Part shown: positions 2,405-51,020 of the stretch, piece by piece
How positions within the stretch are numbered: the first letter of the stretch is position 1
How the letters are laid out: every line of letters begins with the position of its first letter
NCBI RefSeq assembly: GCF_000021565.1
Contig: NC_012440.1
Coordinates: forward strand, 1,256,210 to 1,320,209
DNA length: 64,000 bases
Reading direction: 5' to 3'
DNA from: Persephonella marina EX-H1
GTDB lineage: Bacteria > Aquificota > Aquificia > Aquificales > Hydrogenothermaceae
Notes under the pieces: generated by a model
The model's database searches: none
What the model was told of the DNA's origin: nothing
Seen by the model: only the letters and a program-made list of their open reading frames with translations
Made by a program: the position numbers and the translations under genes

Positions 2405-2438
2405 TTATGAAACTTGTAATCTGAATAGAATTTTATAT

Positions 2439-2465
2439 AGTATTACTAAGAGTATTATTAAGAGG
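2439..2465 (+). promoter_or_regulatory. 12-bp direct repeats before the toxin-antitoxin module
   Basis: AGTATTACTAAG (2439-2450) and AGTATTATTAAG (2451-2462) are adjacent direct repeats with one mismatch, leading into AGAGG (2461-2465), ten bases before the antitoxin ATG. Type II antitoxins often repress their own operon by binding repeated sites at this place, so these are candidate operator half-sites. The role is an inference from position. Confidence 0.35.
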
Positions 2466-2474
2466 TCTATAGTT

Positions 2475-2723
2475 ATGATTATAACGGCAAATGAACTGAA
2501 AACAAAAGGAATTTCCTTTGTTGAGAAAATTCTAAAAAAATACAGGGAAGCATATATCTCTGTTAGAGGGAAGCCTAAGTTTGTCATATTACCAATTGAA
2601 GAATATGAAAAACTGAAAGAAGCGGAACTTGAAAAAATTATAAAAGAAGCAGAAGAGGATTATAAAGCAGGTAGGATTATAAAAGAAACTGCAGAGGAAC
2701 ATATAAAAAGATTGGGAATATAA
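2475..2723 (+). CDS. Phd/YefM-type antitoxin
   Basis: 82-aa putative antitoxin of a type II toxin-antitoxin pair. The N-terminal half has the Phd/YefM layout: short strand IITANELK, helix, then PKFVILPIEEYEKLKEAE, the typical V-I-L-x-x-x-E-Y-E-x-L segment. The C-terminal half is highly charged and probably folds onto the toxin. The stop codon directly abuts the toxin ATG. It lies between cas7 and cas5, in the same direction, which is unusual; it was probably inserted into the cas operon. Antitoxin function is inferred from family pattern and pairing. Confidence 0.8.
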   Translation: MIITANELKTKGISFVEKILKKYREAYISVRGKPKFVILPIEEYEKLKEAELEKIIKEAEEDYKAGRIIKETAEEHIKRLGI

Positions 2724-3002
2724 ATGTATCAGCTTGTCTTTACTGAAACATATTTAAGAAGGGAAAAGGATTTCTTAAAAAAACACAAGGACTTGATCCC
2801 ACGATACAAGAAAGTTTTAAGATTGCTAGAAATAAATCCGTATCATCCTTCATTAAGGTTACACAAACTAAAGGGGAAATTTAAAGATAAGTATTCTGTC
2901 TCTATAACAATGAATTACCGCATTATTATTACATTTGCTGTCGTTGAGAATGAAATCGTATTGATAGATATAGGTTCCCATGATGAGATATATAAAGGAT
3001 AA
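2724..3002 (+). CDS. RelE/YafQ-like toxin
   Basis: 92-aa RelE/ParE-superfamily protein, probably a ribosome-dependent mRNA endonuclease. Visible family features are the basic N-terminal helices (REKDFLKKHK), the LRLHKLKGKFKDKYSV segment with central basic residues, NYRIIITF and the terminal IGSHDEIYKG motif, where the His-Asp pair matches YafQ-like toxins. It starts directly after the antitoxin stop. The next gene, cas5, starts 16 bases downstream, so the toxin is embedded in the cas transcript. A ParE-like gyrase poison is the alternative, but the HDEIY ending favours the mRNase branch. Confidence 0.8.
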   Translation: MYQLVFTETYLRREKDFLKKHKDLIPRYKKVLRLLEINPYHPSLRLHKLKGKFKDKYSVSITMNYRIIITFAVVENEIVLIDIGSHDEIYKG

Positions 3003-3018
3003 GTGGGGGAAAATGTTT

Positions 3019-3741
3019 ATGAAGATTTTAAGAATTAAAGCCTATCAACTTTTTGCGAATTACAGAAAACCAATGAGTTACAACTACTGGGATAGCTATC
3101 CACTACCGCCTCTTTCAACTATTAGAGGTTGGTTTCACTACGTAGTCTGGAACGGAAACAAAGATGAAAACAGGCATTATATTCCTATCTCTATGAGTAT
3201 TCAGGGAAAGTTCTCTTCTGTAATTCAGGATTTACAGACACTTATAAAGTTTGATAGAAAAAGGAACACAAAAGGAGAAATCGTAATAGAAGGCTTTAAC
3301 AAAGCTTTCTCAAAATCTCCGACTTATGTAACAAATATTTTTGATATAAACCTACATATATACATAAAAGCAGAAGAACACTTTCTGCACAGATTTATTG
3401 AAAATGTTTTCAAATTAGAGTATCCATCAATTGGAAGATACGAAGATTTAGTTAGAATTGATGAGTTAAAGATAATAGAGCCAGAACCTATAGATCTCTA
3501 TGAAGAGCCTCACGATATATACTACGGGATTTACATTAACAAAAAAACTGCCGACTATTTTGGACTTAGGGGAATAAACTACAGAATGAACTTTAAGTAT
3601 GATGGTGACCTGCTTAATAAAACAGGACTAAGATACTTTGAGAGGAAAGATATAGTATATGTTGATAATGCTGTATTGGGAGAAGGAGAAATCTTATTTG
3701 ATAAAGAAGAAAACAGGGTAATAGATTTAGTAGGGGATTAA
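3019..3741 (+). CDS. cas5: Type I-B Cas5
   Basis: Cascade subunit that caps the 5' handle of crRNA. The N-terminus MKILRIKAYQLFANYRKP, the SYPLPPLSTIRGWFHYVVW segment and a conserved F-strand are the Cas5 signature (first strand of a RAMP fold plus a Pro-rich loop). I choose ATG 3019 because the purine-rich GGGGGA at 3005-3010 then lies eight bases away; ATG 3013 is too close, and ATG 2980 would overlap the toxin. 240 aa is typical. It is separated from cas7 only by the toxin-antitoxin pair. Confidence 0.87.
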   Translation: MKILRIKAYQLFANYRKPMSYNYWDSYPLPPLSTIRGWFHYVVWNGNKDENRHYIPISMSIQGKFSSVIQDLQTLIKFDRKRNTKGEIVIEGFNKAFSKSPTYVTNIFDINLHIYIKAEEHFLHRFIENVFKLEYPSIGRYEDLVRIDELKIIEPEPIDLYEEPHDIYYGIYINKKTADYFGLRGINYRMNFKYDGDLLNKTGLRYFERKDIVYVDNAVLGEGEILFDKEENRVIDLVGD

Positions 3742-3759
3742 AAATCAAGATTAATAGTT

Positions 3760-6009
3760 ATGAGGAAAATTTATGCAAAAATCTATTACAAAGACGGAAA
3801 ACCAGTTCCAGAAACTTTAGAGGAACATACGGAAAATCTTCTGATAGAGCTTGAAAAGCTAAAAAATATATACGGCAGAGATATAGTAATTAATGAAGAT
3901 TTTTGGGAAAATTTAAAATTTGCCTGTTTATTTCATGATTTAGGAAAAGTATCTGATAATTTTCAAAGTAAGTTGAAGAGAATTGTAGGTGAAAAAATCC
4001 CCAGGGGAGTGGATAAAGAAATACCTCATAATTTTCTGTCTGGAATATTTTTATATTCAAAATCAATAAGAAAATTAATACCAAGAGAGTTTTTTGATTA
4101 TATTTTTTATGCTGTAGTTTTTCACCACGATAGAGAGATCAATTTTGATAGTAATTATCTTAAGGAAGTTGTGGAAAAGGATATTTCAAAAAAAGCTGAT
4201 TTACTAAACTGGCTGGAAAAGTATTCAATAGTTATAGACCGTGTTGACCCAGACAGATCAGGGATTCTTTTTAAGAAAATAAAAGAATTTAAATATAGTG
4301 AACATGAAAAAACAAAAGAAGTTAAAAGGTCTAAATACTTCATACTACTAAAGGGATTACTTCACCGTCTTGACCACTCAGCATCTGCAAAAGTAAATGT
4401 GGAAGAAGAAAGAATAAAAAATCCAAGGGAAAAACTAATACAAAAACTTTCTAAAAAAGAAAATTTTACAGGACTAAAACCATTTCAGGAAAAAGCAAAA
4501 GATTATGAGAATGAAAACATACTTTTAACCGCTTCAACAGGAATGGGAAAAACAGAGTTTGCTATAAACTGGATAGGTGAAAGTAAAGCATTTTATACTT
4601 TGCCTGTCAGGGTATCTGTTAACGCAATGTATGATAGGTTTGTTAACTATTTCGGTAAAGATAAAATAGGACTTCTTCACAGCGATGCTGTTTTTTATGG
4701 ATTTGATAAATACGAAAAGTTTGAGGACAACCTATCAATAGAAGAGCATATAATTAGAACTCAGGCAACAAGACAGTTTGCTATGCCGATAACAATAACC
4801 ACTGCTGACCAGTTATTTACAGCTACATTTAAATATCCGGGATATGAAAAGGTATATGCTACACTTGCATACTCCAAAATAGTTTTAGATGAGCCACAAA
4901 GCTATTCTCCTGATACATTAGCAATAATAATCAAAGGTCTTCAGGAAATATCTGAACTTGGTGGGAAGTTTTGCTTTATGAGTGCTACCATACATCCGTT
5001 CATAAGGGAAAGATTAAAGGATTACTGTCGTATATTAGACGCCGTTTTTAATACAGAAAAAAAGCATAAAATTACCTTACTGGATAACTCTTTAGAAGAA
5101 ACAACAGAAAAAATAAAAGATCTGTATAAAAAAGGCAAAAAAGTCTTAGTGATCCTGAACACCGTAAAAAAATCACAGGAGATATACAAATTACTTAAAG
5201 ATGATAAAACCAATGTAAAACTTCTTCACTCACTATTTATAAACAGGGACAGAAAAGAAAAAGAAGATCAGATAAAAGAGAATTTCAAGACAGAACAACC
5301 AGTCATCTGGATAACAACTCAACTTGTAGAGGCATCTCTGGATATAGATTATGACGTCTTATTTACTGAAATAGCTACTCTTGATGCATTAATACAGAGA
5401 ATGGGAAGAGTAAACAGAAGGAAAGGCAGAACAATTGATGAAAACAGTTCTCCAAATATATTTATTGCCTTGAACAACCCATCAGATCAGGGAAAAATAT
5501 ACAATAAAAATATTGTAGAGTTAACGAAGGAAGCTTTAAAAAACTATGAAGGAGAAATACTGACAGAAGAGATAAAACAGTCATTAATGGAAGAAGTTTA
5601 TAATGAAGAAAAAATAAAAAGCACAAAGTTTTATGAAAAGTTTGAGAAGAACTTAGAATTATTGGAATACGGTTATCAGGCAGATACCAAAGGAGAAGCT
5701 CAAAAATTATTTAGAGAGGTCCTAAATATAAATGTAATTCCCGAAAAGATACTTAATGAAAATTATACACAGATAGATAATCTGATTAACCAGATTTTGG
5801 ACAAGTCAATACCATATCCAGAGAGATTAAAGAGCATTCATAAATTAAACTCTTTCACTTTAGGTCTTCCAATCTTCAGAATAAAAGACCAGATCCCAAC
5901 AGACATAACACCACCTAAAATGAGGAACAAAATATTTTCCGTAAATTTTGATTATAATAGCGAACTCGGATTAATTATTGAAAGTCAGCAACTTGGTGAA
6001 ATTTTATAA
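3760..6009 (+). CDS. cas3: Cas3 HD nuclease-helicase
   Basis: Target-degrading nuclease-helicase recruited by Cascade. The N-terminal HD domain shows HD at residues 59-60 (FHDLGK), FHHD at 121-124 and LHRLDHSAS near 201-209. The helicase follows: Walker A TASTGMGKT ending at 265, motif II DEPQ at 377-380, SAT at 408-410 and motif VI QRMGRVNRR near 546-554. At 749 aa, HD and helicase are fused in the usual order and all main catalytic motifs are present. It starts 18 bases after cas5. The next gene is separated by 128 bases with an operator-like palindrome. Confidence 0.95.
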   Translation: MRKIYAKIYYKDGKPVPETLEEHTENLLIELEKLKNIYGRDIVINEDFWENLKFACLFHDLGKVSDNFQSKLKRIVGEKIPRGVDKEIPHNFLSGIFLYSKSIRKLIPREFFDYIFYAVVFHHDREINFDSNYLKEVVEKDISKKADLLNWLEKYSIVIDRVDPDRSGILFKKIKEFKYSEHEKTKEVKRSKYFILLKGLLHRLDHSASAKVNVEEERIKNPREKLIQKLSKKENFTGLKPFQEKAKDYENENILLTASTGMGKTEFAINWIGESKAFYTLPVRVSVNAMYDRFVNYFGKDKIGLLHSDAVFYGFDKYEKFEDNLSIEEHIIRTQATRQFAMPITITTADQLFTATFKYPGYEKVYATLAYSKIVLDEPQSYSPDTLAIIIKGLQEISELGGKFCFMSATIHPFIRERLKDYCRILDAVFNTEKKHKITLLDNSLEETTEKIKDLYKKGKKVLVILNTVKKSQEIYKLLKDDKTNVKLLHSLFINRDRKEKEDQIKENFKTEQPVIWITTQLVEASLDIDYDVLFTEIATLDALIQRMGRVNRRKGRTIDENSSPNIFIALNNPSDQGKIYNKNIVELTKEALKNYEGEILTEEIKQSLMEEVYNEEKIKSTKFYEKFEKNLELLEYGYQADTKGEAQKLFREVLNINVIPEKILNENYTQIDNLINQILDKSIPYPERLKSIHKLNSFTLGLPIFRIKDQIPTDITPPKMRNKIFSVNFDYNSELGLIIESQQLGEIL

Positions 6010-6080
6010 AATCTTTTAACTCATTTTTTTTTAAAACTACAAATTATTTTATATAAAAAGTTGATTTTGAATAGAAATGG

Positions 6081-6125
6081 ACAGAAAAATTTTTATACAG
6101 AATTTAGTTTACAGAAATTTTCTGT
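6081..6125 (+). promoter_or_regulatory. Operator-like cluster of ACAGAA half-sites
   Basis: Between cas3 and the nucleotidyltransferase, ACAGAA occurs at 6081, 6097 and 6111. The last forms a perfect inverted repeat, ACAGAAA-T-TTTCTGT (6111-6125), ending 12 bases before the ATG of the next gene. Such a cluster in the only sizeable gap of the operon suggests a transcription-factor site controlling the nucleotidyltransferase-cas4 part separately. The regulator is unknown; AT-richness makes some repeats likely by chance. Confidence 0.4.
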
Positions 6126-6137
6126 TATATTTGTAAA

Positions 6138-6926
6138 ATGCAAGATTTAATAAGACAAAAACTTAAAAATATTGAAAAAAATCACAACATAAAAATCCTC
6201 TATGCCTGTGAGTCTGGAAGCAGAGCGTGGGGATTTGAATCTCCTGACAGTGATTATGACATCAGATTTATATATGTAGAAAAACTGGATTACTACCTGT
6301 CAATAGAGCAAAAAAGGGATACCATTGAAATAATCGACGGAGAACTTGACTTTGTCGGATGGGAGCTTAAAAAAGCTCTGTTTCTGCTCAGGAAATCAAA
6401 TCCTTCCCTCATTGAGTGGTTAAACTCTCCTAGAGTTTACCTGAAAGATGAAGAATTTTATAAAAAAATCAAAAAACTCATGGAAAAGTCCTTCAACCCA
6501 AAATCCCTGATGTACCACTACTTCCACATGGCAAAATCAAACTACAGAGAATATCTAAAGGGAGATTTAGTAAAGGTAAAAAAATACTTCTATGTGTTAA
6601 GACCTATATTTGCATTAAATTGGATCCAAGATAAAAAAAGAATTCCACCAATAGAATTTGAGATTCTTTTGAACGGAGTCCATATTTCAGATAAAGTTAA
6701 ACTTGAAATCTTAAAACTACTAAAAGAAAAAAAGAATACAAAAGAACTGGATCTTAGACCAAAAATTAAAATATTGAATGAGTTTATAGAAAAAAATATA
6801 GATTATTATGAGAAATTTTTGAAAGAGTTTGATTTTAGGACAAATCTTCCTGAAGTTTACGGCTATAACTTCCTATTAAGAAGAATGATTTTCAAATATG
6901 ATACTGAAATATGCAACCCGAAATAA
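6138..6926 (+). CDS. RlaP-like nucleotidyltransferase (COG3541 type)
   Basis: 262-aa DNA-polymerase-beta-superfamily nucleotidyltransferase resembling the RlaP/YcgL group (PF10127), some of which belong to RNA repair operons. The catalytic core is visible: GSRAWG at residues 27-32, SDYD with Asp39 and Asp41 as metal ligands, and GELDF with Asp71 as the third acidic residue. The C-terminal half is helical, Lys-rich and conserved in style with the family. It overlaps cas4 by 16 bases, so the two are co-translated. It is not a usual cas gene; its substrate (tRNA, crRNA, protein) cannot be told from sequence. Confidence 0.8.
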   Translation: MQDLIRQKLKNIEKNHNIKILYACESGSRAWGFESPDSDYDIRFIYVEKLDYYLSIEQKRDTIEIIDGELDFVGWELKKALFLLRKSNPSLIEWLNSPRVYLKDEEFYKKIKKLMEKSFNPKSLMYHYFHMAKSNYREYLKGDLVKVKKYFYVLRPIFALNWIQDKKRIPPIEFEILLNGVHISDKVKLEILKLLKEKKNTKELDLRPKIKILNEFIEKNIDYYEKFLKEFDFRTNLPEVYGYNFLLRRMIFKYDTEICNPK

Positions 6927-7423
6927 ACTTTGAAGAGCTTAAGGTTAATGGGATTAAAATCAATTATTACTTTATTTGTCCCAGAAAGTTATGGCTTTTT
7001 GATAGAAAGATCACGATGGAAGAAAAGTCTGACAGGGTTCTTATGGGGGCGTTACTTCACGAAACCAGTTACAAAAGAGATAAAACTAAAGAAGTTCTGA
7101 TTGATAATATTATCTCAATTGATATCCTGGATAACTTAAACATCAGAGAAGTTAAATACTCTGATAGAATGGCAGAAGCTGATAGAATGCAAATTCTATA
7201 CTATCTGTATTATCTAAAAAAGCTTGGAATAAGCAAAAAAGGGATAATAAACTATCCCAAGCAAAAGAGAAGAGAATTTGTAGAGCTTACACCAGAAGAT
7301 GAAAGGAAGATAGAGCAGGCTTTAATGGAAATAGATAGAATACTAAAGCAGGAAAAACCACCACCTGTGATAGATGTCCCATATTGCAAAAAATGTGCTT
7401 ATTTTGAGTTTTGCTTTGGGTGA
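6911..7423 (+). CDS. cas4: Cas4 Fe-S exonuclease
   Basis: Adaptation nuclease that trims prespacers and selects the PAM. All four cluster Cys are present: Cys23 (ICPRKLW) and Cys159, Cys162, Cys168 (CKKCAYFEFC at the C-terminus). The RecB-like nuclease residues are His50, Asp71, Glu80-x-Lys82 and Gln94. 170 aa is the usual length for the short type I Cas4. The start lies inside the preceding nucleotidyltransferase gene. Downstream the operon is broken by two opposite-strand genes before cas1. Confidence 0.93.
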   Translation: MQPEINFEELKVNGIKINYYFICPRKLWLFDRKITMEEKSDRVLMGALLHETSYKRDKTKEVLIDNIISIDILDNLNIREVKYSDRMAEADRMQILYYLYYLKKLGISKKGIINYPKQKRREFVELTPEDERKIEQALMEIDRILKQEKPPPVIDVPYCKKCAYFEFCFG

Positions 7424-7426
7424 TTT

Positions 7427-9772
7427 TTACATAAAGCTTGTAAAACCTTGTGTTTGGAGCTTATAAAGCATCTCTAAAAGTTTATGGGCAGTATGTTTAT
7501 AATCACTATCAATTGAGTTTAAATCTGGGATGCCTTCTTTTATGAGTTCTTCTGGACTTTTAATTTCACAGAAGTTTAGAAATCTTAAAATAGGTTTTTT
7601 CAGTTTTTGTCTTGTTCCATGAAACTTCGGTAGCACTTTCATCTTTAACGCCAGATCAAAAGCTTCATCTAAATTTTCAAATTTTATTAATGAGTTTTGA
7701 CAGTTGTATAAGAACATAACTATCTCATCAAAAACTCTGTATCCAAAGTGAAGGTTAAAAGGTTTTAAGATCTGATTTATTTCTTCAAGTTTATCTTTAT
7801 ATTTCTTATTTTTTTCTAAAAACTCTAAAATCTTTCCTTTGTTTATGGAAGCAAAATTGCCATTATTTGTAAAGTCTTTTTTTAAATCTTCCGTGAATTT
7901 GCCTTTATTTTCAATACCGTTTGAACTATTTTTTAAAAAATTAAGGTACTCATCAAAACATCCAACATCAAACTCAATGGTAAAAGCTCTATCTAGAACT
8001 TTGGGAGAAAACATATGGGTAGTTTCATCAATATTTACAGTTCCGATGAAGTAAAGGTTCGGAGGTAAAAATAGCTCCTTTGGTACATTTGAACTTTCTT
8101 CATTGTGAAGTTTTATGCTTTGGGAAGTAAATTTATAATTTCCTTCATTCAGTTCTTTTCCAAGATTTTTAATAAACTCTATAAAACTACAACTTCCAAT
8201 AGCTTCGCTTAAGTTTTGAAATTTTTTTGCTTCCAGTACAGATAAAAAGTCTGCAAAGTAATATTCAACTCTTGCTAAATTCATCTCATCAAATAGGACG
8301 AAAAAGGGGTCTGAATCTTTTCCATTTTCCAAATAGTTTTTAGAAGCTTCTAATACAAAGTCCAATAAAGGAGTTGTATGGTATTCCCTTTTTAAAGGGT
8401 TATAAAATCCAAGTAGTGATTTACTGTCTTTAAAATCGGGTCGAACGGGGAAGAATAAATTGTTATCTAAATTCTGTTCAAATTTTTTTATTTTAAGTTT
8501 TTTATCTAATTTTTTTAAGCCTAACTTCTTAATATCTTCTTTTTCAATTATTTCAAATCCAAATAAACTTCCGATATACACCGCCAAGTGATTTGTTATC
8601 TCTGATGCATTGATTAAATCTGTTCTGTTTTTTAATTCTTCTACTACAGGTATAAGTTCTGTATAGTATTTGTTTATTTTCAAAAAAACTTTTCTATTAG
8701 TCGTAGACATCAACTTCTCATTTATAGATTCAATAAAATCTTGAATTTTTAATCTTCCATTACCAAACTGTATTTGCTCTTTTTTAATGGGAACCAATTT
8801 TTCCTCTGTGTCTTCTGTAACAATCCATTTTTCCTTTTTGATACTTTTTGAGTTGGGAAAATATTTAACGAAATCCTCAAAAATTTTTGTTTTTCCTGTG
8901 CCTGAAAGTCCTGCCAAGATAACAAAACCTTTTGTTTTTAAGGCATTATAGAAAGATGCTATCTGATGATTTTCAAGCTTTAGATTTTCTAAAAATTTTT
9001 TTGAATTAATTATTGGATCGTAAACGTACAAAAATCCATTTTTTAAAGCTATAGGATTTATTTTACGATTACAGAAGCTTTTCAGATCTTTCAATGGAAT
9101 GTACTCGTTTAATTCTTCAATTTTATCAATCAATAGCCATGTTTTGAATATTTCATTTTTCCTTTCTGAAAGTTTTTTCTTTCCTTTCCATCCTTCATCC
9201 AGAATAAAATCTTCCCAGTTCTCTGGACATTCTATTCCGTCATCACCTTCGTGAGTTATGAAGTCTACAACTTTGCATCTCGCTTTTAACTTACCATCTT
9301 GATAAAAATAAAACCAGAAAGGTTTTTCTTTTTCGTAGTCTTCTTTACAATGTTTTATCGGATAGCTCCACCAAAGGGATACTTTATCTTTATTTTTCAA
9401 TTTAGTTTCAATATCGGATAATAGACTCTTTAGATCATCTTTGCCTATTGAACCAGCAAGAGCTATTTTCTTTTGGTTATAGCTGCCTTTTAAATCAGAA
9501 TTTATTGTTTTTTCCTTAATATCTCTTAGTCCCCAAATTCCTGTTCCTTTTTCTTTTAGATAAAAAATATCCTCTTTACCTACGAAATTGTTTGAATCTG
9601 AAGAATATCTTTCAAGTGTTCCTCTTATGGTGGCTTTATAAGATTTTGAAATCTGGACATTATATTTCCGAGCTAATTTTTTAAATTCTTCATATATCTT
9701 GTTAAGATGAGCTTCTCCTCCTAAATTTTGCAACACTTCGATTAATATATCTTTATGCCTTTTGTTCTCCAT
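7427..9772 (-). CDS. mcrB: McrB-like AAA+ GTPase with N-terminal HTH and EVE-like region
   Basis: Motor and DNA-recognition subunit of a McrBC-type modification-dependent restriction system. Residues 1-85 look like a winged-helix domain of the kind found at the N-terminus of restriction proteins. About residues 130-215 (SLWWSYPIK, then FYFYQDGKLKARCKVVDF) resemble an EVE/PUA-like reader of modified bases. The AAA+ core has Walker A GLSGTGKT (288-295), LFDEMNLA (493-500) and GTVNIDETTH (577-586), matching the McrB GTPase signature. It follows the McrC-like gene by 22 bases with an AAGAGGT site, and converges on cas4 with a three-base gap. Confidence 0.87.
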   Translation of the reverse strand: MENKRHKDILIEVLQNLGGEAHLNKIYEEFKKLARKYNVQISKSYKATIRGTLERYSSDSNNFVGKEDIFYLKEKGTGIWGLRDIKEKTINSDLKGSYNQKKIALAGSIGKDDLKSLLSDIETKLKNKDKVSLWWSYPIKHCKEDYEKEKPFWFYFYQDGKLKARCKVVDFITHEGDDGIECPENWEDFILDEGWKGKKKLSERKNEIFKTWLLIDKIEELNEYIPLKDLKSFCNRKINPIALKNGFLYVYDPIINSKKFLENLKLENHQIASFYNALKTKGFVILAGLSGTGKTKIFEDFVKYFPNSKSIKKEKWIVTEDTEEKLVPIKKEQIQFGNGRLKIQDFIESINEKLMSTTNRKVFLKINKYYTELIPVVEELKNRTDLINASEITNHLAVYIGSLFGFEIIEKEDIKKLGLKKLDKKLKIKKFEQNLDNNLFFPVRPDFKDSKSLLGFYNPLKREYHTTPLLDFVLEASKNYLENGKDSDPFFVLFDEMNLARVEYYFADFLSVLEAKKFQNLSEAIGSCSFIEFIKNLGKELNEGNYKFTSQSIKLHNEESSNVPKELFLPPNLYFIGTVNIDETTHMFSPKVLDRAFTIEFDVGCFDEYLNFLKNSSNGIENKGKFTEDLKKDFTNNGNFASINKGKILEFLEKNKKYKDKLEEINQILKPFNLHFGYRVFDEIVMFLYNCQNSLIKFENLDEAFDLALKMKVLPKFHGTRQKLKKPILRFLNFCEIKSPEELIKEGIPDLNSIDSDYKHTAHKLLEMLYKLQTQGFTSFM

Positions 9773-9794
9773 AATATATGAACCTCTTTATTTT

Positions 9795-11225
9795 TTAATC
9801 ATTAATCAGGATTTTTTTTAAATCTAAATTTAAAAACCCTATACCTTCAAAATACTCTTGGTTCAAAAATTTTTTATCAAATTCTATTTCATAAATCCCT
9901 TTATCTTTAAAATAAAAATTTCCCAATGTATTATTTCCATAACATACTGCAACAGCAAATTCAGCATCTAATCCATCTTTATAATAATGCATATTTAAGA
10001 GAATATCCTTTCTATTATCTTCAAAAATTCTAAATTTTGCATCAAAAATATATTTTTTATTATTCATTTCCATAATAAAATCAGGTCTAAATTCTAACCT
10101 GGAATAAGAGTATAAGCTCTTTTGAAAATATAGTTTTAATCCATCTTCAAACTCAAACACCGCATAATCGTATATAGTCCCTTGTTTAGTTCTTTCTTCA
10201 AAGTTAATCTTTGTTTCATAATTTCCGTAAATCTTTTTGAGTGATTTTAGTATTTCTATTAATACGTAGTATTCCCATAAAGTAGCCATATCTTTTAAAG
10301 AAAGCGCAATATCAAGATTTTTAAAAATCTGTGGTATGAATGAAGAATGGAACAATCTATATATATTGAATATTTCTCTATAACCTGCTTTTTTCATCAA
10401 TACCTGAGAGTTCGAAGGAAAATAACTTAGATTTCCGACTTCCACAAAAATATCTGTTTGCAAGGCGTATTCAACTTCCTCTTTTATTTCTCTTAGCTCC
10501 TTTAGATATAGGAATTCTTCTAGTTCTTCAGACAGAACTGTTTCAATCTCTTTTAAAAAATACTTAATAAACCTATTTTCAAGAGTATCAAATGTTTCTT
10601 CTGTCACATACTGTAAAACCTTTATAGGCGAATATCTGTCTTCGATAATTCCATTTTCCGTTTTGTATAAGAACTGAGGATTAGATATAATGTCAGTCAA
10701 AACATCTTCATTAACTACGTATACCTCTCCTAAGTTCTTGTATTCTTCATTTTCGATTAACTCTTTATGAGGATTAGAGAGAACGAAATGAACAGAGTTT
10801 ATCAACTCATCTTTCTTTTCTAAGAGTAGTAAAAGTTTAAAGATTTTACTTTCCACTGGTTTGCTTTCATCTACAGGGAAGTTTGCTAAAGCAATTGAGT
10901 AAATAATATTCTCTTTTGATAGTTCTCTGATAATGTAATTTAAAAATTTTTCAAAGAAAAAGTTAAAGAAAGTTTGAAAATCGCTTTCTTTTTTAAAACT
11001 TTCTAAGGATTTTTTTATTTTGGACGGTATCACAAGTATATTATCTGTCAAGTATCCGCAGAAATTTTCTACATATAAAATATCATCTTCTATTCTTACT
11101 TTTTCAGATTCCTCTAAATATTTTAGAAATTTAATATCGTTATGTCTAATGCCAATTTCTTTTAAATTAATACTATTGCTTTCTATGATCAAAATTTGCA
11201 AGTCCTTTTCTGAATTTTTCAACAC
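9795..11225 (-). CDS. McrC-like PD-(D/E)XK nuclease (DUF2357/LlaJI-type)
   Basis: Probable nuclease subunit partnering the McrB-like GTPase. The C-terminal RPDF...YIFDAKFR segment gives a PD-(D/E)XK site with Asp382, Asp395 and Lys397 (numbered from the start chosen here). A central helical region with LWEYYVLIEIL is typical of McrC/DUF2357 proteins. The frame is open to 11459, but that would overlap cas1 by 200 bases on the opposite strand. Between 11225 and the middle of the gene there is no ATG, so I use GTG 11225 (TTG 11222 is as good). Its start lies 33 bases from the divergent cas1. Confidence 0.72.
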   Translation of the reverse strand: MLKNSEKDLQILIIESNSINLKEIGIRHNDIKFLKYLEESEKVRIEDDILYVENFCGYLTDNILVIPSKIKKSLESFKKESDFQTFFNFFFEKFLNYIIRELSKENIIYSIALANFPVDESKPVESKIFKLLLLLEKKDELINSVHFVLSNPHKELIENEEYKNLGEVYVVNEDVLTDIISNPQFLYKTENGIIEDRYSPIKVLQYVTEETFDTLENRFIKYFLKEIETVLSEELEEFLYLKELREIKEEVEYALQTDIFVEVGNLSYFPSNSQVLMKKAGYREIFNIYRLFHSSFIPQIFKNLDIALSLKDMATLWEYYVLIEILKSLKKIYGNYETKINFEERTKQGTIYDYAVFEFEDGLKLYFQKSLYSYSRLEFRPDFIMEMNNKKYIFDAKFRIFEDNRKDILLNMHYYKDGLDAEFAVAVCYGNNTLGNFYFKDKGIYEIEFDKKFLNQEYFEGIGFLNLDLKKILIND

Positions 11226-11227
11226 TA

Positions 11228-11241
11228 TATATTTAAATATA
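11228..11241. promoter_or_regulatory. Palindrome in the mcrC-cas1 divergent gap
   Basis: TATATTTAAATATA is a perfect 14-bp palindrome filling almost all of the 33-base gap between the divergent McrC-like gene and cas1. A full promoter for cas1 cannot fit in this gap without overlapping the nuclease gene, so the element could serve as a shared AT-rich -10 region or an operator. AT-only palindromes arise easily by chance. Confidence 0.3.
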
Positions 11242-11258
11242 AAAACAAAGGGGAAAAA

Positions 11259-12254
11259 ATGTCTCGTAGGTTTTATATTAACTCTAACGGAAGGCTTAGA
11301 AGAAAAGAGAACACCCTTTATTTTGAAACAGAGCAGAATGGGGAGATAGTCAAAAAAGCTCTTCCGATAAATGATATAGATGTAATCTATGTTTTTGGCG
11401 AGCTTGATATAAACACAAAAGCTCTGAATTACCTGTCTGGATACGATATCCCTATTCATTTCTACAATTACTATGGATTTTATTCTGGAAGCTTTTTGCC
11501 GAGAAAAAAGAATGTTTCAGGGAGTCTGTTAGTAGAGCAGGTAAGGCATTATATAGATAATAAGAAAAGGCAGTATCTTGCGGTATCTTTTGTTGAAGGA
11601 GCGGCCTATCATATTCTAAGAAATCTAAGAAAGCAGAATATAAATTCTGAAGATTTTGAAGAGATAGAAAAAGATCTTTTTCCTAAGATCTTTGAAACCA
11701 GAAATACTGAAGAACTTATGGCATTAGAAGGTAATATCAGGGAAAGATATTACCAGCTTTTTAACAAAATAATAAATAACGAAGATTTTTTTATGGAAAA
11801 AAGAGAAAAGCGGCCACCAGACAACCCGATAAATGCTTTAATAAGTTTTGGAAATTCTATTATGTACAATACTGTTCTCACGGAGATATACAGGACTCAG
11901 CTTGATCCTACTATAAGTTACCTTCACACGCCACAGGAAAAGAGATTTTCATTATCTCTTGATTTAGCCGAGATCTTTAAGCCTTTTATTATTGACCCAC
12001 TTATTTTCAGTCTAATTAATAACAGACAGATAACCATAAAAGATTTTGATAAAGATCTGAACTATGCCTATCTGAATGAAAATGGACGAAAAAAGTTCTT
12101 AAAAGCTTACGAAGAAAGGCTTTCTAAAACAATTAAACACCGGAAGTTAAAGAGAAAAGTCTCTTACAGACAGTTAATTAGGCTTGAATGTTATAAGTTG
12201 ATAAAACATCTGATAAGTGATGAGGATTATAAACCATTTAAAGCGTGGTGGTAA
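11259..12254 (+). CDS. cas1: Cas1 spacer integrase (type I-B)
   Basis: Integrase that inserts new spacers with Cas2. Catalytic metal ligands are visible at Glu157 (ALEGNIRERYY), His223 (YLHTPQEKRFS) and Glu238 (DLAEIFKP). The 331-aa length and the N-terminal RRFYINSNGRLRRKENTL match the type I-B branch. RBS AAAGGGGA at 11247-11254 supports ATG 11259. It is coupled to cas2, whose ATG lies one base after the cas1 stop. It is separated from cas4, its usual neighbour, by the McrBC-like pair on the other strand. Confidence 0.95.
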   Translation: MSRRFYINSNGRLRRKENTLYFETEQNGEIVKKALPINDIDVIYVFGELDINTKALNYLSGYDIPIHFYNYYGFYSGSFLPRKKNVSGSLLVEQVRHYIDNKKRQYLAVSFVEGAAYHILRNLRKQNINSEDFEEIEKDLFPKIFETRNTEELMALEGNIRERYYQLFNKIINNEDFFMEKREKRPPDNPINALISFGNSIMYNTVLTEIYRTQLDPTISYLHTPQEKRFSLSLDLAEIFKPFIIDPLIFSLINNRQITIKDFDKDLNYAYLNENGRKKFLKAYEERLSKTIKHRKLKRKVSYRQLIRLECYKLIKHLISDEDYKPFKAWW

Positions 12255-12255
12255 G

Positions 12256-12522
12256 ATGTTTGTTATAGTGACTTATGATATTTCCGAGGACAGAAGATTA
12301 AATAAAGTAAGGAAGATATTAAAGAAATATCTTTACTGGAGTCAGCTATCTACATTTGAGGGTGAAATATCTGAAGGTAAGCTTGCACAGTGTATGTCTG
12401 AGATAAATGATGTTATTGATCGCAATGAAGACAGCATTTATGTTTATGAGGTGAAAAATCCCAGAAATATAAAAAAGAAAGTCTTAGGGATAAAAAAAAG
12501 TTATATGGATAATTTTTTGTAA
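12256..12522 (+). CDS. cas2: Cas2
   Basis: 88-aa partner of Cas1 in spacer acquisition, ferredoxin-fold. MFVIVTYDIS carries the conserved strand with the Asp (VTYDIS), followed by RRLNKVRKILKKYLYWSQLSTFEGE, the typical Cas2 helix and second strand. An upstream in-frame ATG at 12217 lies inside cas1, so ATG 12256, one base after the cas1 TAA, is chosen. It is followed directly by the CRISPR leader. Confidence 0.95.
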   Translation: MFVIVTYDISEDRRLNKVRKILKKYLYWSQLSTFEGEISEGKLAQCMSEINDVIDRNEDSIYVYEVKNPRNIKKKVLGIKKSYMDNFL

Positions 12523-12818: not shown

Positions 12819-13237
12819 GTTTTTTCTGAACCAAGTGGGGTATAAATTTTATGAGCTGGAAATATCTATAAGAAAAATTGAGGGTTTTTTCTGAACCAAG
12901 TGGGGTATAAATTCTTTCTGCTCTACATATATTGTTTTTCCTGTGTAGTTTTTTCTGAACCAAGTGGGGTATAAATTCCTTCTTTGCTTGAAAATTGATC
13001 AGACGATAAATGAGTTTTTTCTGAACCAAGTGGGGTATAAATTGAAGATCATAAAACTTATATCTAAAACTCCCTACGTTTTTTCTGAACCAAGTGGGGT
13101 ATAAAGTGGAAGATACATGTAATAAGGAACTGGGACGATGCAGTTTTCTTTGAACTAAGTGGGGTATAAATGTTGTTGTTGGTTGTATATTGACCATCAC
13201 TGCGTCTTGTTTGTTTTAAACTAAGTGGGATAGAAAG
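12819..13237 (+). CRISPR. CRISPR array 1 (7 repeats, 6 spacers)
   Basis: 29-bp repeats start at 12819, 12884, 12948, 13014, 13078, 13143 and 13209, with spacers of 35-37 bp. The first four are identical (begin GTTTTTTCTGAACC, end GGGGTATAAAT). The fifth ends in AAAG; the sixth has a GTTTTCTTTG 5' part and ACTAAG; the seventh, GTTTGTTTTAAACTAAG... GGGATAGAAAG, resembles the array 2 repeat. Leader-proximal uniformity and distal decay set the direction left to right. It is beside cas1-cas2 and so is the primary array. Confidence 0.98.
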
Positions 13238-13262
13238 TTTTATAATGGAAATTGTATAGTAA

Positions 13263-13754
13263 AGTTTTACAAAATTTGAACTACCCGATAAAAGTTTATC
13301 TCAGCTTGAAAAAGAGGTTAAGGAAAAGGGACTTAATGATAAAGAAGTTGAACAGACATGGGATGAGTTTTTAACTATGCTTGATAATTACAACTCTAAA
13401 AGCGGATCATATTATCAGTACACATTAGAAGATTTTAGGAATGGAAAAGTTGATAAAACGTTGGAAGCATTGAAGAAAGAAATAACAAAAATGGAACAAA
13501 TTCCGGGATATCTTGAAAGCGAACAACGAAATAAACTCTACAATAACTTCAAGCAACAGTATAAAGACTTAACAGAGTTAAAGAATAAATATGATGAGGC
13601 GGCAAATAATACTCTTGTGTGGAATATGTATAATTTCCTTAAAAGGGGGAGAGAAAACTCAATTGCAACCCCGGAAGTTAAGGATGGTGGTTTATTTGGT
13701 AATGATCCGTCGGCAGTTGATAAGACAACTGGCAAGCCGATATTTGAGAAATGA
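13263..13754 (+). pseudogene. 5'-truncated coding fragment abutting array 1
   Basis: The frame is open from 13263, just after an in-frame TAA at 13260 and 25 bases past the last repeat, to a stop at 13752-13754. It reads as real protein throughout (for example FELPDKSLSQLEKEVKEKG), with Lys/Glu-rich helices and an ending GKPIFEK. The first ATG (13377) has no ribosome binding site and lies in the middle of good coding sequence, so this is best read as the C-terminal part of a gene whose beginning was lost at the CRISPR boundary. Function unknown. Confidence 0.6.
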
Positions 13755-45785: not shown

Positions 45786-45908
45786 TACTCCCTCCCCCAT
45801 ATTTTTAATTTCATATCAGATTAATAATTTGTCAATATACTACGAATAAATTTTTAAGAATCTTGATTTTTAAAAGAAGGATTATTACTATTAAACATGC
45901 CAGTTAAA

Positions 45909-46143
45909 CGGATTCATGGCAACTGAATATGCTATTATGATGCATTTTGAGTAAGAAAGACTAAGATTTTTAATCCTTGATAATCAACATTTATAAGATA
46001 ATGCTAATAAGTATAATTGCATTACTACAGGTTTAATGCAGATTACTTATTTTTGCAAAGATGTATAGAAGCGGAATGATCTTTCTCTAAATGGCTTTAT
46101 AACTTGCTAAATGGCTTATTTTTTTATATCGATAGAATAGTGG
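45909..46143 (+). promoter_or_regulatory. CRISPR leader of array 2
   Basis: Between the lipase gene and array 2 (45786-46143) there is no gene. Bases 46013-46111 match the array 1 leader 12688-12786 at 95 of 99 positions, including the inverted repeat TGCATTA (46018-46024) / TAATGCA (46034-46040). Both blocks end 32 bases before the first repeat. Weaker similarity reaches back to about 45909 (CATGG...CTGAATATG). A shared leader implies that the Cas1-Cas2 at 11-12.5 kb can serve this array. Confidence 0.85.
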
Positions 46144-47101
46144 GTTTTCTTTGAACCAAGTGGGATAGAAAGTTAACAACATCTGTTGCTGTTACTGCAG
46201 TTACATCTGTAGTTTTCTTTGAACCAAGTGGGATAGAAAGGTATCTTCTTCTGCTTCTATATAAGATATAGTTTTACCAGTTTTCTTTGAACCAAGTGGG
46301 ATAGAAAGAAGCGTGTATCTTGTGGTGTAACGAAATTGCGGGATGTTTTCTTTGAACCAAGTGGGATAGAAAGGTGGAAAGGTTTAAATTTTAATTAGTC
46401 CACTGGTGAAGTTTTCTTTGAACCAAGTGGGATAGAAAGTTGGAAGTATAACATTTTTAGGCTTTGAAACTTCATCAGTTTTCTTTGAACCAAGTGGGAT
46501 AGAAAGTTTCACTCCGGTGGTGTTATCGCTCATTCTGGAATGGTTTTCTTTGAACCAAGTGGGATAGAAAGACCAGTGATGACGAAAGACTTGCAAGGTT
46601 CTGGGCTGTTTTCTTTGAACCAAGTGGGATAGAAAGGCAGTTCTTAAAGCTCTGGAATCTATGAATGCAAAGTGTTTTCTTTGAACCAAGTGGGATAGAA
46701 AGACTTCCTGATTCTGTTTCAACAACATCCTGCGAAATTGTTTTCTTTGAACCAAGTGGGATAGAAAGTTTTTCATAGCTACCCAAATAGGCTTTGCTAC
46801 TGATGTGGTTTTCTTTGAACCAAGTGGGATAGAAAGTCTGTTTTAGCAGGGATAACAGTTTTATTAACATTTGTTTTCTTTGAACCAAGTGGGATAGAAA
46901 GCAGCAACAGGTTCAAGTATTTTCTGTATTGCTCCAAAAATGTTTTCTTTGAACCAAGTGGGATAGAAAGTGTATGTATACCTGTTCTCCTTTTTTGTAC
47001 TCTACAGTTTTCTTTGAACTAAGTGGGATAGAAAGTGAGCGTGTGTTTGCACATACGCAAACACACAAGAAAGTTTTCTTTGAACTAAGTGGAATAGAAA
47101 G
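46144..47101 (+). CRISPR. CRISPR array 2 (15 repeats, 14 spacers)
   Basis: 29-bp repeats start at 46144, 46212, 46280, 46345, 46411, 46478, 46543, 46608, 46674, 46740, 46808, 46873, 46942, 47007 and 47073. The first 13 are identical (GTTTTCTTTGAACCAAG... ending GGGATAGAAAG); copy 14 has ACTAAG, copy 15 ACTAAG and GGAATAG. Spacers are 36-40 bp. It differs from the array 1 repeat at several positions but shares the GAACCAAGTGGG core. No cas gene adjoins it. Two further degenerate repeats lie at 50795-50888. Confidence 0.98.
47041..47066 (+). repeat. Perfect inverted repeat inside the last spacer
   Basis: Spacer 14 (47036-47072) contains GTGTGTTTGC (47041-47050), six bases ACATAC, and GCAAACACAC (47057-47066): ten-base perfect complementary arms. 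It may derive from a palindrome such as a terminator or origin of the invading element. The crRNA made from it would fold on itself. Confidence 0.9.
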
Positions 47102-48299
47102 AATGGAAGTTGGCTTCCTCATCAATTAATGATACAGGATCAGAGACTTCTTTTATATTTAGAGAATCAAGGATCTCTCTAACAATCTGTCTTTTTACAG
47201 CTTTTTCTTCAGGGGTTTCATTCTTTAGCTTTTCCTCTAATTCATTGATAAATTCCTCTATTCTCTTCTCTGTTTTCTCCTGTTTTTCTCTTATCTCTTT
47301 GATTTTTTTCTCAATTAAATTATTGACTTCCTGAAGGCTAGTATTCTCATCAATCTTGTCAATCCCAATACTTCCCTTTAAAGTTTCCTCTTCTGCATCC
47401 GTAAACTCATAACCAGATCCACTTTCCAAAGCATTATTAACGCTTTCCTTTATCTTCTCTAATTCCTGAAGAATCTTATACTCATATGAATCTGGCTCTT
47501 TGTTTCCCTCACCATTATCTTTTTCTGTATCGCCCTTCTTCTTTTTCACACCTTTTACGGTATAAAGTTTTTCTTTAATTTCTTCTAATTGTCCATCTTC
47601 CTCTTCCGACAAATAAACGGCAAGTAATGCTTTTGTTATATCAGGATCATTTCCATACTTACTGGAAAGATCCATTATAGATTCAATCATATTTAAGCCG
47701 TATCTATACTTTCTGTTATCAATTAAAAACTGTTCTGCTTTTTCTCTTCCCTCACTTGATATATCATTTACCATTAAGTTTGAAATCCTATCAAAGACAT
47801 CAGATAGGACAAGGTATGAATAATTAGCCACTGAAAACTCAAGAGCTTTTTTTACATTGAGATAATTCTCATAATTGCTTTCAGGAAGTCTCTCCAGTGC
47901 TTTTTTACTCTTGATAACACTTCTTATTCCAAATAATGTGGTCTTTCCAGTCGAAGTATCTATTATAAATTTCCCTTTGGACAGACTTCCAAAATCTGCA
48001 ACATCACTCTCATCTCTTTTTAAGTTTGCTACCACACCAAGAAGTACATCATTTTCTATAGACTCTATCTTCTCTGCCTTTTCTAGATTATCACCTCCCT
48101 GACCCTCCAATAAACTTTTTTCCTTTTTTAAAGCAGATAAAATCTCCTCTTTTTTTCTCCTGTAATCTGAATTTATATGCATTAGGACTTTATTTGCCAT
48201 TACCGTACCTAACGAAGCACTGGTCCACACATAATCAGCAAATTTTTCTGTACTATTAGTAGACAGAATTAACTGTCCAAAATTCTCTGGCTTATCCAT
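47085..48299 (-). CDS. Unknown coiled-coil protein whose end is formed by a CRISPR repeat
   Basis: 404 aa from ATG 48299 (GGGTG upstream; a GTG at 48308 is also open). No signal peptide; long Glu/Lys-rich helices, including a strong coiled coil in the last 120 residues. No family recognised. The final codons, encoding SFYST, and the TAG stop lie within the last array 2 repeat, so the natural C-terminus was probably lost. Last gene of the four-gene minus-strand cluster; 18 bases after its neighbour. Confidence 0.7.
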   Translation of the reverse strand: MDKPENFGQLILSTNSTEKFADYVWTSASLGTVMANKVLMHINSDYRRKKEEILSALKKEKSLLEGQGGDNLEKAEKIESIENDVLLGVVANLKRDESDVADFGSLSKGKFIIDTSTGKTTLFGIRSVIKSKKALERLPESNYENYLNVKKALEFSVANYSYLVLSDVFDRISNLMVNDISSEGREKAEQFLIDNRKYRYGLNMIESIMDLSSKYGNDPDITKALLAVYLSEEEDGQLEEIKEKLYTVKGVKKKKGDTEKDNGEGNKEPDSYEYKILQELEKIKESVNNALESGSGYEFTDAEEETLKGSIGIDKIDENTSLQEVNNLIEKKIKEIREKQEKTEKRIEEFINELEEKLKNETPEEKAVKRQIVREILDSLNIKEVSDPVSLIDEEANFHSFYST

Positions 48300-48317
48300 T
48301 TTTAACACCCTTTTTGA

Positions 48318-48662
48318 TTAATTGAGGTTGAAACTTTTTCTATTATAAACACCGTATCTTTTACCAATCTCATTCATAGACACATTGGCAGGTTCGAATA
48401 CTACATCAATAAACCTTATATCTGCCATACCATTACCATTTGAATTCTCTATTATTCTCAGTTGTTCTTTGATCATATCAGGGTATAGAGTGTAGTACTG
48501 TCTATAGGCAGCACTTAGTTCGTCCTTGGCTATTCTCAACTCTTTCTTTGAATAAAGCCGATGTATAGCACCAAAAAGCAATCTGTTTTCTAAAATATCA
48601 TCAGAAGGTAAAAAATCTTCACATCTTAAGTTTTCTAAAGTTTCAGATATTACCTTTTCCAT
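48318..48662 (-). CDS. Unknown 114-aa protein
   Basis: Starts MEKVISETLENLRCEDFLP with AAGGAGAT before the ATG, a strong ribosome binding site. Mostly helical, acidic, no membrane segment, and a C-terminal part (IRFIDVVFEPANVSMNEIG) with strand-like pattern. Eighteen bases separate it from the downstream gene, so co-transcription is likely. No family recognised. Confidence 0.65.
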   Translation of the reverse strand: MEKVISETLENLRCEDFLPSDDILENRLLFGAIHRLYSKKELRIAKDELSAAYRQYYTLYPDMIKEQLRIIENSNGNGMADIRFIDVVFEPANVSMNEIGKRYGVYNRKSFNLN

Positions 48663-48692
48663 CTTTATCTCCTTATATCAATTTTTCTTATT

Positions 48693-49655
48693 TCACTGCT
48701 GGCTAACTTTTTTAGGGATCTTTTTCCCTTTGAAGTCTGGATTGTCTTCATAAACTTTGCTTGCCATAATCTGTTTTCGTTTCTTGAACTGCTGTATTAC
48801 TTGGATCTGTCTGGCTATCTTTTCTCTCATTTCAATCTCTTCTTTGTTCTGCTTCGGCAGTTCAATGGCAAGCCTGTCTATTTCTTTAAGCATATATTCA
48901 AGTAGACTATTATCATCCATTTCCAGACTATAGAACCTTGCCCAGTCTATTACATCTCTACCGAAGTAATCTGTTTCTAGAGGATCTGCACCTCTCTCCA
49001 GAAGCCATGTAATTAGTGCCTTTTTGCCATTGATTAATTTTTCCTCTATTATGTCTGGGTTTGTACGAAAAAATTCAGAGGACAAAAACCTTTTTACACT
49101 CTCTTCTTGAGTCTGCATTCTTTTATATCTATCTTCTTCTAAGCTTTGTTCTATATTCATAGATCCACCAACCGTCCTAATAACATCAGTTCCAACACTT
49201 TTCGTTTTAATCAACCTTCCTATATATCTTCTTGACATAAAAACTGTATGCAAGGGGGTCAATCCCATTGATTTCTCTTTTATATTAACATCAAGTAAAT
49301 GCAAAAATCCCATTGCAAAAGCATATCTGCCCTGCATAATCAAGAGATGTACTGCATGGTGTCCTGCACTCGTGTACATCTCATCTATTTTTAAACCACT
49401 TGTTACACTTTTTTCTAGTATATTTCCAATTCCTCGTGCAAGTTCTTCCAATTCCTGCTTCACTTCCTCAAGGGGATAAATTGAATAGTCTCTTGATTCT
49501 ATGCCTTCTTCATCTTTATAGATGAAATTCCAAAAGATAGTCTTGTACCTTTCCTCGTCTATTTTTCCATTTTTAGGCTTAGGCAACATTCTATAATAAT
49601 ATTCACTTAACACCCCTTCATTAACCCCTTCCTGATCCAGCCATCTGTCACTCAT
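48693..49655 (-). CDS. Ankyrin-repeat-like protein
   Basis: 320 aa, soluble. Ankyrin-type helices are visible: AGHHAVHLLIMQGRYAFAMGFL, GLTPLHTVFMSRRYIG and the clearest repeat GKKALITWLLERGADPLETD followed by GRDVIDWARFY. The C-terminus is basic and helical (QIQVIQQFKKRKQIMASK). Good RBS GAGGTGGAG before the ATG. Ankyrin proteins bind other proteins; the partner here is unknown. A 122-base gap separates it from the upstream gene and may contain a promoter. Confidence 0.7.
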   Translation of the reverse strand: MSDRWLDQEGVNEGVLSEYYYRMLPKPKNGKIDEERYKTIFWNFIYKDEEGIESRDYSIYPLEEVKQELEELARGIGNILEKSVTSGLKIDEMYTSAGHHAVHLLIMQGRYAFAMGFLHLLDVNIKEKSMGLTPLHTVFMSRRYIGRLIKTKSVGTDVIRTVGGSMNIEQSLEEDRYKRMQTQEESVKRFLSSEFFRTNPDIIEEKLINGKKALITWLLERGADPLETDYFGRDVIDWARFYSLEMDDNSLLEYMLKEIDRLAIELPKQNKEEIEMREKIARQIQVIQQFKKRKQIMASKVYEDNPDFKGKKIPKKVSQQ

Positions 49656-49777
49656 TTACTCCACCTCAACTTTTATAGACTGTACCTAATTTATGTTAAA
49701 ACTTAAAACAGATTCATTAAATTTGCAAGCTATTTTTTTGCACTAAAAAAATAATGCAACTTTCTTCTAATCAAAAG

Positions 49778-50794
49778 CTAATTTGTTAACATAGCATCCT
49801 TGATCTTCTGGATTGCAGGTCCATTTACATATCTCATTATTACGGATCTGTCTTTTATATAGAACCTCTTAGCAAGGATTGTTCCACTATCTAACCTTAA
49901 AAGATAATCAACCGTTTCGCCAGCAACTGTCATTCTAAGAAGAACGAAACCAACACCGTCTTTTTCTTTATAAAAGACCTCACCCACATCTCTTTCTTCC
50001 TGTGTATACTCGTCAAAAAACCTTATGTACCCCTCAAGTTTAAATCCAAATTCAAACCCTTTTGCTGATTCTGTCCAGTTCGATGGATTCTCCAAGTAGT
50101 AGGTGCCGGTATCTTCATCATAATACTTATACCCAAGAGATTTACACCCAGATCCATACATTCCAACTTTATCGCATGTTGTTTGAGGGTCCTTACTTAC
50201 TCCATATAGAAAGGAATACAGACCATAAGAAGATGGGTCACAGGTTGAAGCATAGTTATAAAAATAACCTGTAGAATAGTTGTAAGTGTAATTTACAGAC
50301 AAAGAAGATATATAGGGGTCCCCACTATCGTCATAAGCATAGCTTTCTGAACAGGAAGGAGTTTTAGGTGGAATTAGATAATACTTATTTTTGTTCGATG
50401 TCTCTCTAACAAAATAAAGTGGAACTCTCTCAAGAATTACTGCATTATCTTTTGAATCATATGTAAATATATCAAGAACACTTGAATGGTTATAGCCAAT
50501 CTCAAGATCTGCCTGATATTTTGAGAAGAAAATATCACCTGTGGCTTTAGCTTCCCCTCTAATTATATATAGCACATCCCCTTCAGAAAAAGAGATGTTA
50601 AAATTAGGAAGAATATTATCTCTAAACAGATCCCTTGACCTGACTACACGATTTGCAAGATCCTCTTCCCTAATGTTTGTAATATTTAACTGCAAACCTC
50701 TATTGTATGATGCAATTAAACTTCCATTATCAGAAATTATATATGTCCCAACCTGCTGTAAGGACTCGTTCAGTGGAATACTGGTCTTGTTTAC
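49778..50794 (-). pseudogene. 5'-truncated gene starting at a CRISPR repeat
   Basis: The frame is open from the edge of the repeat (an in-frame TAG lies within the repeat) to the stop at 49778. A TTG at 50695 is available, but the 33 codons before it read as protein (GTYIISDNGSLIASYNRG), so the real start is missing. The product is Tyr/Ser-rich with four or more Cys (CDPSSYG, TTCDKVG, GSGCKS) and no membrane segment, suggesting a beta-rich extracellular C-terminal domain. No family recognised. It may still be expressed from TTG. Confidence 0.65.
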
Positions 50795-50888
50795 GTTTAC
50801 TTTGAACTAAGCGGGATAGAAAGGCTTTATCAAGAAAGATAATATCATTTAACACTTGTGTTTCTTTTGAACTAAGCGGGATAGAAAA
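50795..50888 (+). CRISPR. Two degenerate distal repeats of array 2
   Basis: Repeats at 50795-50823 (GTTTACTTTGAACTAAG... CGGGATAGAAAG) and 50860-50888 (GTTTCTTTTGAACTAAG... CGGGATAGAAAA) enclose a 36-bp spacer (50824-50859), the size seen in the main array. They share the ACTAAG variant with the last repeats of both arrays, and add T to C before GGG. They are in the same orientation as array 2, 3.7 kb past its last regular repeat. Confidence 0.9.
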
Positions 50889-50939
50889 TTAGTATTCTTT
50901 ACGTTTGATTAGGATGATAGAAAATCGGTGTAAAAAATA

Positions 50940-51020
50940 GACGCCCGCCCGCTTCCCTGCTCGCAGCGGGTCTGGTGCCGGTAGTTCACTGGAGGCAGGG
51001 TCTCCACCTACCAGCACTCC
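50940..51020. ncRNA. GC-rich foldable element, candidate structured RNA
   Basis: Of bases 50941-51020, 55 are G or C, while both flanks are very AT-rich. Hairpin 1: CCCGCT (50948-50953) with AGCGGG (50965-50970). Hairpin 2: GTGC (50975-50978) with GCAC (51014-51017), GGTAG (50980-50984) with CTACC (51008-51012), and TGGAG (50990-50994) with CTCCA (51002-51006). In thermophiles such GC islands usually mark structured RNAs. I do not recognise the family or the strand; it lacks SRP and RNase P motifs. A transposon end is the main alternative. Confidence 0.45.

Follow-up and report, generated by a model that had tools for sequence, protein, structure and literature searches.

In the hot-vent bacterium Persephonella marina EX-H1, one spacer position of a type I-B CRISPR array (array 2) is occupied by 3693 nt of non-repeat DNA, which carries four minus-strand genes and runs exactly from one complete repeat to the next, both in the same orientation. 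Recombination of an invader with two old spacers that matched it is, we infer, the most likely origin of this insert. On this tentative reading, to which we assign a probability of roughly 0.45, the insert is a kilobase-sized pseudo-spacer: part of a virus or plasmid that a double crossover at two matching spacers lodged between repeats. An earlier note on this DNA had described a 3.7-kb gene cluster in a spacer position, cut at both repeat boundaries, and its coordinates and gene count proved right. Its interpretation, which offered recombination between the array and a repeat-bearing element, a captured giant spacer-like fragment and misassembly as origins, is partly supported by the analysis below; the note missed a precedent in Sulfolobus and the route through matching spacers.

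Array 2 consists of 17 copies of a 29-nt repeat (consensus GTTTTCTTTGAACYAAGTGGGATAGAAAG) between positions 46144 and 50888 of the window (the whole stretch of DNA analysed, 64 kb), all in one orientation. Start-to-start steps are 65-69 nt in 14 cases, 3722 nt in one and 65 nt in the last, and repeat mapping bore out the earlier count of 15 repeats, then 3693 nt with four minus-strand genes, then two repeats around a 36-nt spacer; the insert is thus flanked on both sides by ordinary repeat-spacer units. Spacers measure 36-40 nt in array 2, and 32-44 nt across 259 spacers of its repeat family. Three arrays in the genome use this repeat family, each preceded by a leader of ~250 nt, and the three leaders are 81-86% identical. 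Since the conserved leader lies to the left of array 2, the array would have grown from the left, which places the insert at its old, leader-distal end. Both terminal repeats contain the variant AAGCGGG (C18), absent from every other repeat in the genome, and the two repeats that border the insert, at 47073 and 50795, are not identical, with three differences. The spacer immediately left of the border repeat (47036-47072) is a near-palindrome (GTGTTTGC...GCAAACAC), which is unusual in spacers. A search for a third decayed repeat beyond the last repeat of array 2 gave no significant score (21, against a 99th percentile of 20), nor did one for a decayed repeat beyond the last repeat of array 3 (20 against 20). 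Between array 2 and a gene at 51177, which appears surE-like from its sequence, lies a GC-rich, hairpin-like patch (50935-51020) in AT-rich intergenic surroundings.

Table 1. Features of the CRISPR loci, the insert and the phage targeted by host spacers. Positions are those of the window unless stated otherwise.
Feature	Position	Strand	Remark
Type I-B cas genes	43-12522	+	cas8b1/Cst1, cas7, cas5b, cas3, cas4, cas1b, cas2
Array 3	12820-13242	+	7 repeats; adjoins cas2; start-less ORF after last repeat
Leader of array 2	45884-46143	+	81-86% identical to leaders of arrays 1 and 3
Leader-side part of array 2	46144-47101	+	15 repeats, 14 spacers (36-40 nt)
Left border repeat of insert	47073-47101	+	GTTTTCTTTGAACTAAGTGGAATAGAAAG
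Insert	47102-50794		3693 nt, in the position of one spacer
P1	47085-48308	-	coiled-coil orphan; 407 aa from GTG 48308, or ~403 aa from ATG of MDKPENF
P2	48318-48662	-	orphan protein, 114 aa
P3	48693-49655	-	orphan, 320 aa; weak, sub-threshold ankyrin match
P4	49778-50794	-	orphan; no start codon before repeat
CCT, PAM of a would-be 40-nt former spacer at right end of insert	50752-50754	+	
Terminal part of array 2	50795-50888	+	two decayed repeats (50795-50823, 50860-50888) and 36-nt spacer
Array 1	1254084-1254825 (contig coordinates)	-	
Mu-like transposable phage loci			L079 (G030:C3, ~3-20 kb), L080, L083-L085 (G023)

Genes run into the repeats at both edges of the insert. At the left edge, where the earlier note had seen a gene ending inside the repeat, the C-terminus of P1 is cut: the protein reads ...EANFH and then SFYST, these last five residues and the stop (at 47085) lying within the repeat and coming from its reverse complement. 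At the right edge, a frame said to lack a start is indeed open from a TAG inside the repeat at 50795 to 50695 with no ATG, GTG or TTG. Because no start codon precedes the repeat, P4 is probably cut at its N-terminus, with weak codon support at that edge. When scored by the codon usage of the host, both edge frames were the best of six, at +10.8 bits on the left, which is convincing, and +2.1 bits on the right, which is weak.

None of P1-P4 had a significant match in Pfam or PHROG. The ankyrin protein of the earlier note is P3, whose match is present and yet falls below the Pfam cutoff (18.0 versus 22.7 bits), and the label Cys-rich was generous for a protein with 4 Cys in 342 aa. Structure predictions for P3 and P4 were uninformative (mean pLDDT 38 and 36), and a PADLOC assignment of P1 as ZorA (E 0.005) looks like coiled-coil noise. 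The search against plasmids, viruses and related genomes that the earlier note had proposed yielded no relatives in the collections searched: P1-P4 had none among 60 near genomes or across 136 genomes from the phylum, the insert proteins tested against phage and plasmid records had none there, and scans with short peptide patterns, which detect close relatives only, found none for the insert proteins in viral-contig collections and, where genome contigs were scanned for P3 and P4, none there either.

We detected no transposase, integrase, terminal inverted repeat or end duplication in the insert. Among its four genes there were no matches to transposase or casposase families, and no significant PHROG or Pfam match to integrase, structural, replication or transfer genes. 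Compared over 34-40 nt, the two ends of the insert share 24-33% identity directly and 17-20% when inverted. Since they are unlike in either orientation, integration of a plasmid by a single crossover at one spacer and an inverted-end transposon are both excluded; the observation in the earlier note that transposase and terminal repeats are lacking stood. We likewise rejected a casposon, for want of an enzyme and of inverted ends, and a prophage or integrative element, as the four genes have no significant PHROG or Pfam match. The second contig of the genome, 53.7 kb and plasmid-like, bears conjugation-type genes by our reading of its ORFs, and was rejected as a source since no ORF there matches. 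No present spacer of the host targets the insert, all matches being of 14 nt or less.

We extracted 32 spacers from the host and 227 from relatives, and searched the first 7209 of their 9651 nt (all host spacers included) against 30 relatives. At least 8 of the 32 host spacers, from all three arrays (A1s1, A1s4, A1s8, A2s1, A2s2, A2s4, A3s2 and A3s5, three of them in array 2), match one family of Mu-like phage, found within the host's own family of bacteria in genomes G030 and G023, where the targeted element encodes a Mu-like transposase, a transposition ATPase, a terminase, a tail sheath and a major head protein. The host genome itself gave no match to the phage tail sheath. In all 21 matches whose alignment begins at the first base (11 spacers in all), bases -3 and -2 are CC; hence, the PAM is 5'-CCN. 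Of the eight protospacers in G030, seven share a strand; the distances between them run from <1 kb to several kb, and the size of the insert falls within these limits. Thus, the host commonly keeps several co-oriented spacers from one invader.

We propose that array 2 formerly held two co-oriented spacers, a and b, both taken from one element. If that element re-entered the cell, a double crossover or gene conversion at the two ~37-nt matches would swap the array DNA between a and b for the stretch of the element that separates the two protospacers. Each old spacer would keep its outer end joined to an intact repeat, so the edges of the insert would be repeat-exact and genes would be cut wherever the protospacers happened to lie; no repeat on the invader is needed to explain either feature. 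Loss of the targeting units between a and b may itself have been selected. Repeat-exact borders, open frames running into both repeats, the lack of integration signatures, the orphan content and the published archaeal analogues all support this proposal, and its precondition exists in the host today, which holds several co-oriented spacers against one element. Recombination at two spacers also predicts that the insert ends, over its last ~37 nt, in an old spacer with CCN before it. A CCT does lie directly upstream of the terminal 40 nt; spacers of this length are near the upper limit of the range and number 2 of 32 in the host. We give this apparent agreement little weight: with a CC frequency of 4.9% on that strand and seven allowed lengths, it is expected by chance in ~30% of cases, and so the mechanism is unproven. 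Against recombination at two spacers stand the lack of any match between present spacers and the insert and of a significant match to the targeted Mu-like phage, which we rejected as the source (best phmmer E 0.011). GC content is also unexceptional, at 34.3% versus 35.1% for the window, and the putative foreign origin rests on the orphan status of the genes. Recombination across ~37 bp is inefficient, and the AAGCGGG common to the last two repeats would slightly favour a separate origin of that pair.

An unlikely alternative is that a linear 3.7-kb fragment was inserted by both its ends as a giant spacer through the action of Cas1-Cas2 together with Cas4. Integration would have taken place at the leader-proximal repeat of a young array, with duplication of that repeat, and the 15 ordinary units would have come later. 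The exact spacer position and the fragment-like cut ends agree with this, the old position fits polarised growth, and the host has the genes required: its cas locus is of the Cst kind, with adaptation genes complete. Spacers of this repeat family, however, keep to a narrow range of lengths (32-44 nt across 259), and no kilobase substrate is known to become integrated as a spacer. Polarised duplication further predicts that the repeat at 47073 copies that at 50795, whereas the former lacks C18 and differs at three sites. That adaptation machinery would, on rare occasions, give a bacterial type I-B array a multi-kilobase 'spacer' and so preserve gene-sized foreign DNA as part of the immune memory seems to us quite unlikely. 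'Faulty protospacer processing' has nonetheless been proposed for an archaeal case (PMC3718332), and the giant spacer-like fragment of the earlier note came close, since the published analogues are of that sort and the first was named a pseudo-spacer (PMC3718332, PMC4390879).

We also observed two features of the cas locus that concern its other genes. A minus-strand pair of large genes (7427-11459) splits the operon between cas4 and cas1; we read the pair as an McrBC-like restriction system, and its first gene matches PADLOC PDC-M26A. Between cas3 and cas4 lies a nucleotidyltransferase-like gene (6138-6926) with a weak MntA-type match below cutoff.

Crossing of an element, or of another array, with the same CRISPR repeat into array 2 is unlikely. 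Repeats do lie at both edges of the insert, three arrays of one repeat family are present in the genome, the last two repeats have a private variant in common, and virus-borne mini-arrays exist (PMC6858448). But each edge of the insert appears to fall within a gene, so that a donor repeat would have interrupted genes, which is unexpected for the repeat-bearing element of the earlier note if its repeat lay between genes; moreover, the 53.7-kb contig has no copy of the repeat. We consider it improbable that two arrays were joined, with the distal repeat pair surviving from a separate array and a rearrangement leaving ordinary strain-specific chromosomal DNA, the four genes, in between. Such a history would account for the restriction of C18 to the distal pair, and array 3 likewise ends against a start-less ORF; it would, however, mean that each array fragment breaks into a gene precisely where a repeat ends, and no separate leader accompanies the distal pair. 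Misassembly, or collapsed repeats joining unrelated sequence, is highly improbable even though CRISPR repeats are known to mislead assembly, as the insert lies in a single finished 1.93-Mb chromosome, was found once and nowhere else, and is flanked by junction repeats with private variants on both sides. The genome (1,983,966 bases) is finished, not draft, with a chromosome of 1,930,284 bp and one further contig of 53,682 bases, and the insert sequence is single-copy in it.

Array 3 has features of its own. Its five leader-side repeats (GTTTTTTCTGAACCAAGTGGGGTATAAA) are unlike its two oldest, which resemble those of arrays 1 and 2; judged from these sequences, repeat evolution is visible inside the array. 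Directly beyond its last repeat comes an open frame without a start (13263-13376), which has strong codon support (+17.9 bits) and runs into a 125-aa ORF at 13377. The combined frame (13263-13754) has no start in its first 38 codons, and its product is also an orphan, with no relatives found; we read it as a second cut gene at a trailer end. PADLOC assignments of this ORF as GajA, LmuB or Cas7b look like coiled-coil noise, and in genome G124 it matches a trigger-factor-like gene. The host genome may be prone to carry cut foreign genes at the trailer ends of its arrays. The repeat spacings listed for 27 array stretches in ten related genomes include no kilobase-scale gap; among the arrays listed, two have gaps of 133 and 227 nt.

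Two archaeal cases of gene-sized DNA in a spacer position are on record without an accepted mechanism, and a larger one, from a bacterial type I-B array, is now added. This suggests that CRISPR arrays generally can trap gene-sized pieces of invaders, whether by recombination with stored spacers or by faulty adaptation, and that they are possible entry points for foreign genes. Recombination and capture mark the ends of an insert in ways that differ and can be tested, and the PAM required to read them (CCN) is now known. Array 2 of P. marina thus offers a concrete test locus in a cultured thermophile.

The closest known case is the SiL-E1 pseudo-spacer of Sulfolobus islandicus LAL14/1, 1.9 kb of pING1-like plasmid DNA in CRISPR_2, for which the authors considered faulty protospacer processing or recombination of a plasmid with matching spacers (PMC3718332). 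Given two matching spacers, their second scenario would produce just the anatomy of the P. marina insert. As in P. marina, kilobase DNA with several ORFs sits exactly between two repeats, with more normal units beyond, and there is no integration signature. SiL-E1, however, belongs to an archaeal type I-A system and its flanking repeats are identical, a trait that may not be essential to such pseudo-spacers, whereas the P. marina insert, at 3.7 kb, lies in a bacterial type I-B array between repeats that differ at three sites, with decayed distal repeats. SiL-E1 is also 82% identical to known conjugative plasmids, whereas the P. marina insert has no relative in the collections searched. In CRISPR locus F of S. 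solfataricus, 899 bp of pNOB8-like DNA (PMC4390879) similarly places mobile-element DNA between two repeats, but this insert is shorter and archaeal, lies in a leaderless locus and partially matches a known plasmid. Foreign DNA also breaks up arrays in Haloquadratum walsbyi HBSQ001, where a MITE lies inside a spacer, and in S. solfataricus, where ISC1359 does so (PMC3119063, PMC4390879); such transposition leaves spacer halves on both sides together with element ends, neither of which is seen at the P. marina insert. We conclude that this insert is a larger, bacterial, type I-B counterpart of the archaeal pseudo-spacers, unusual but not unprecedented.
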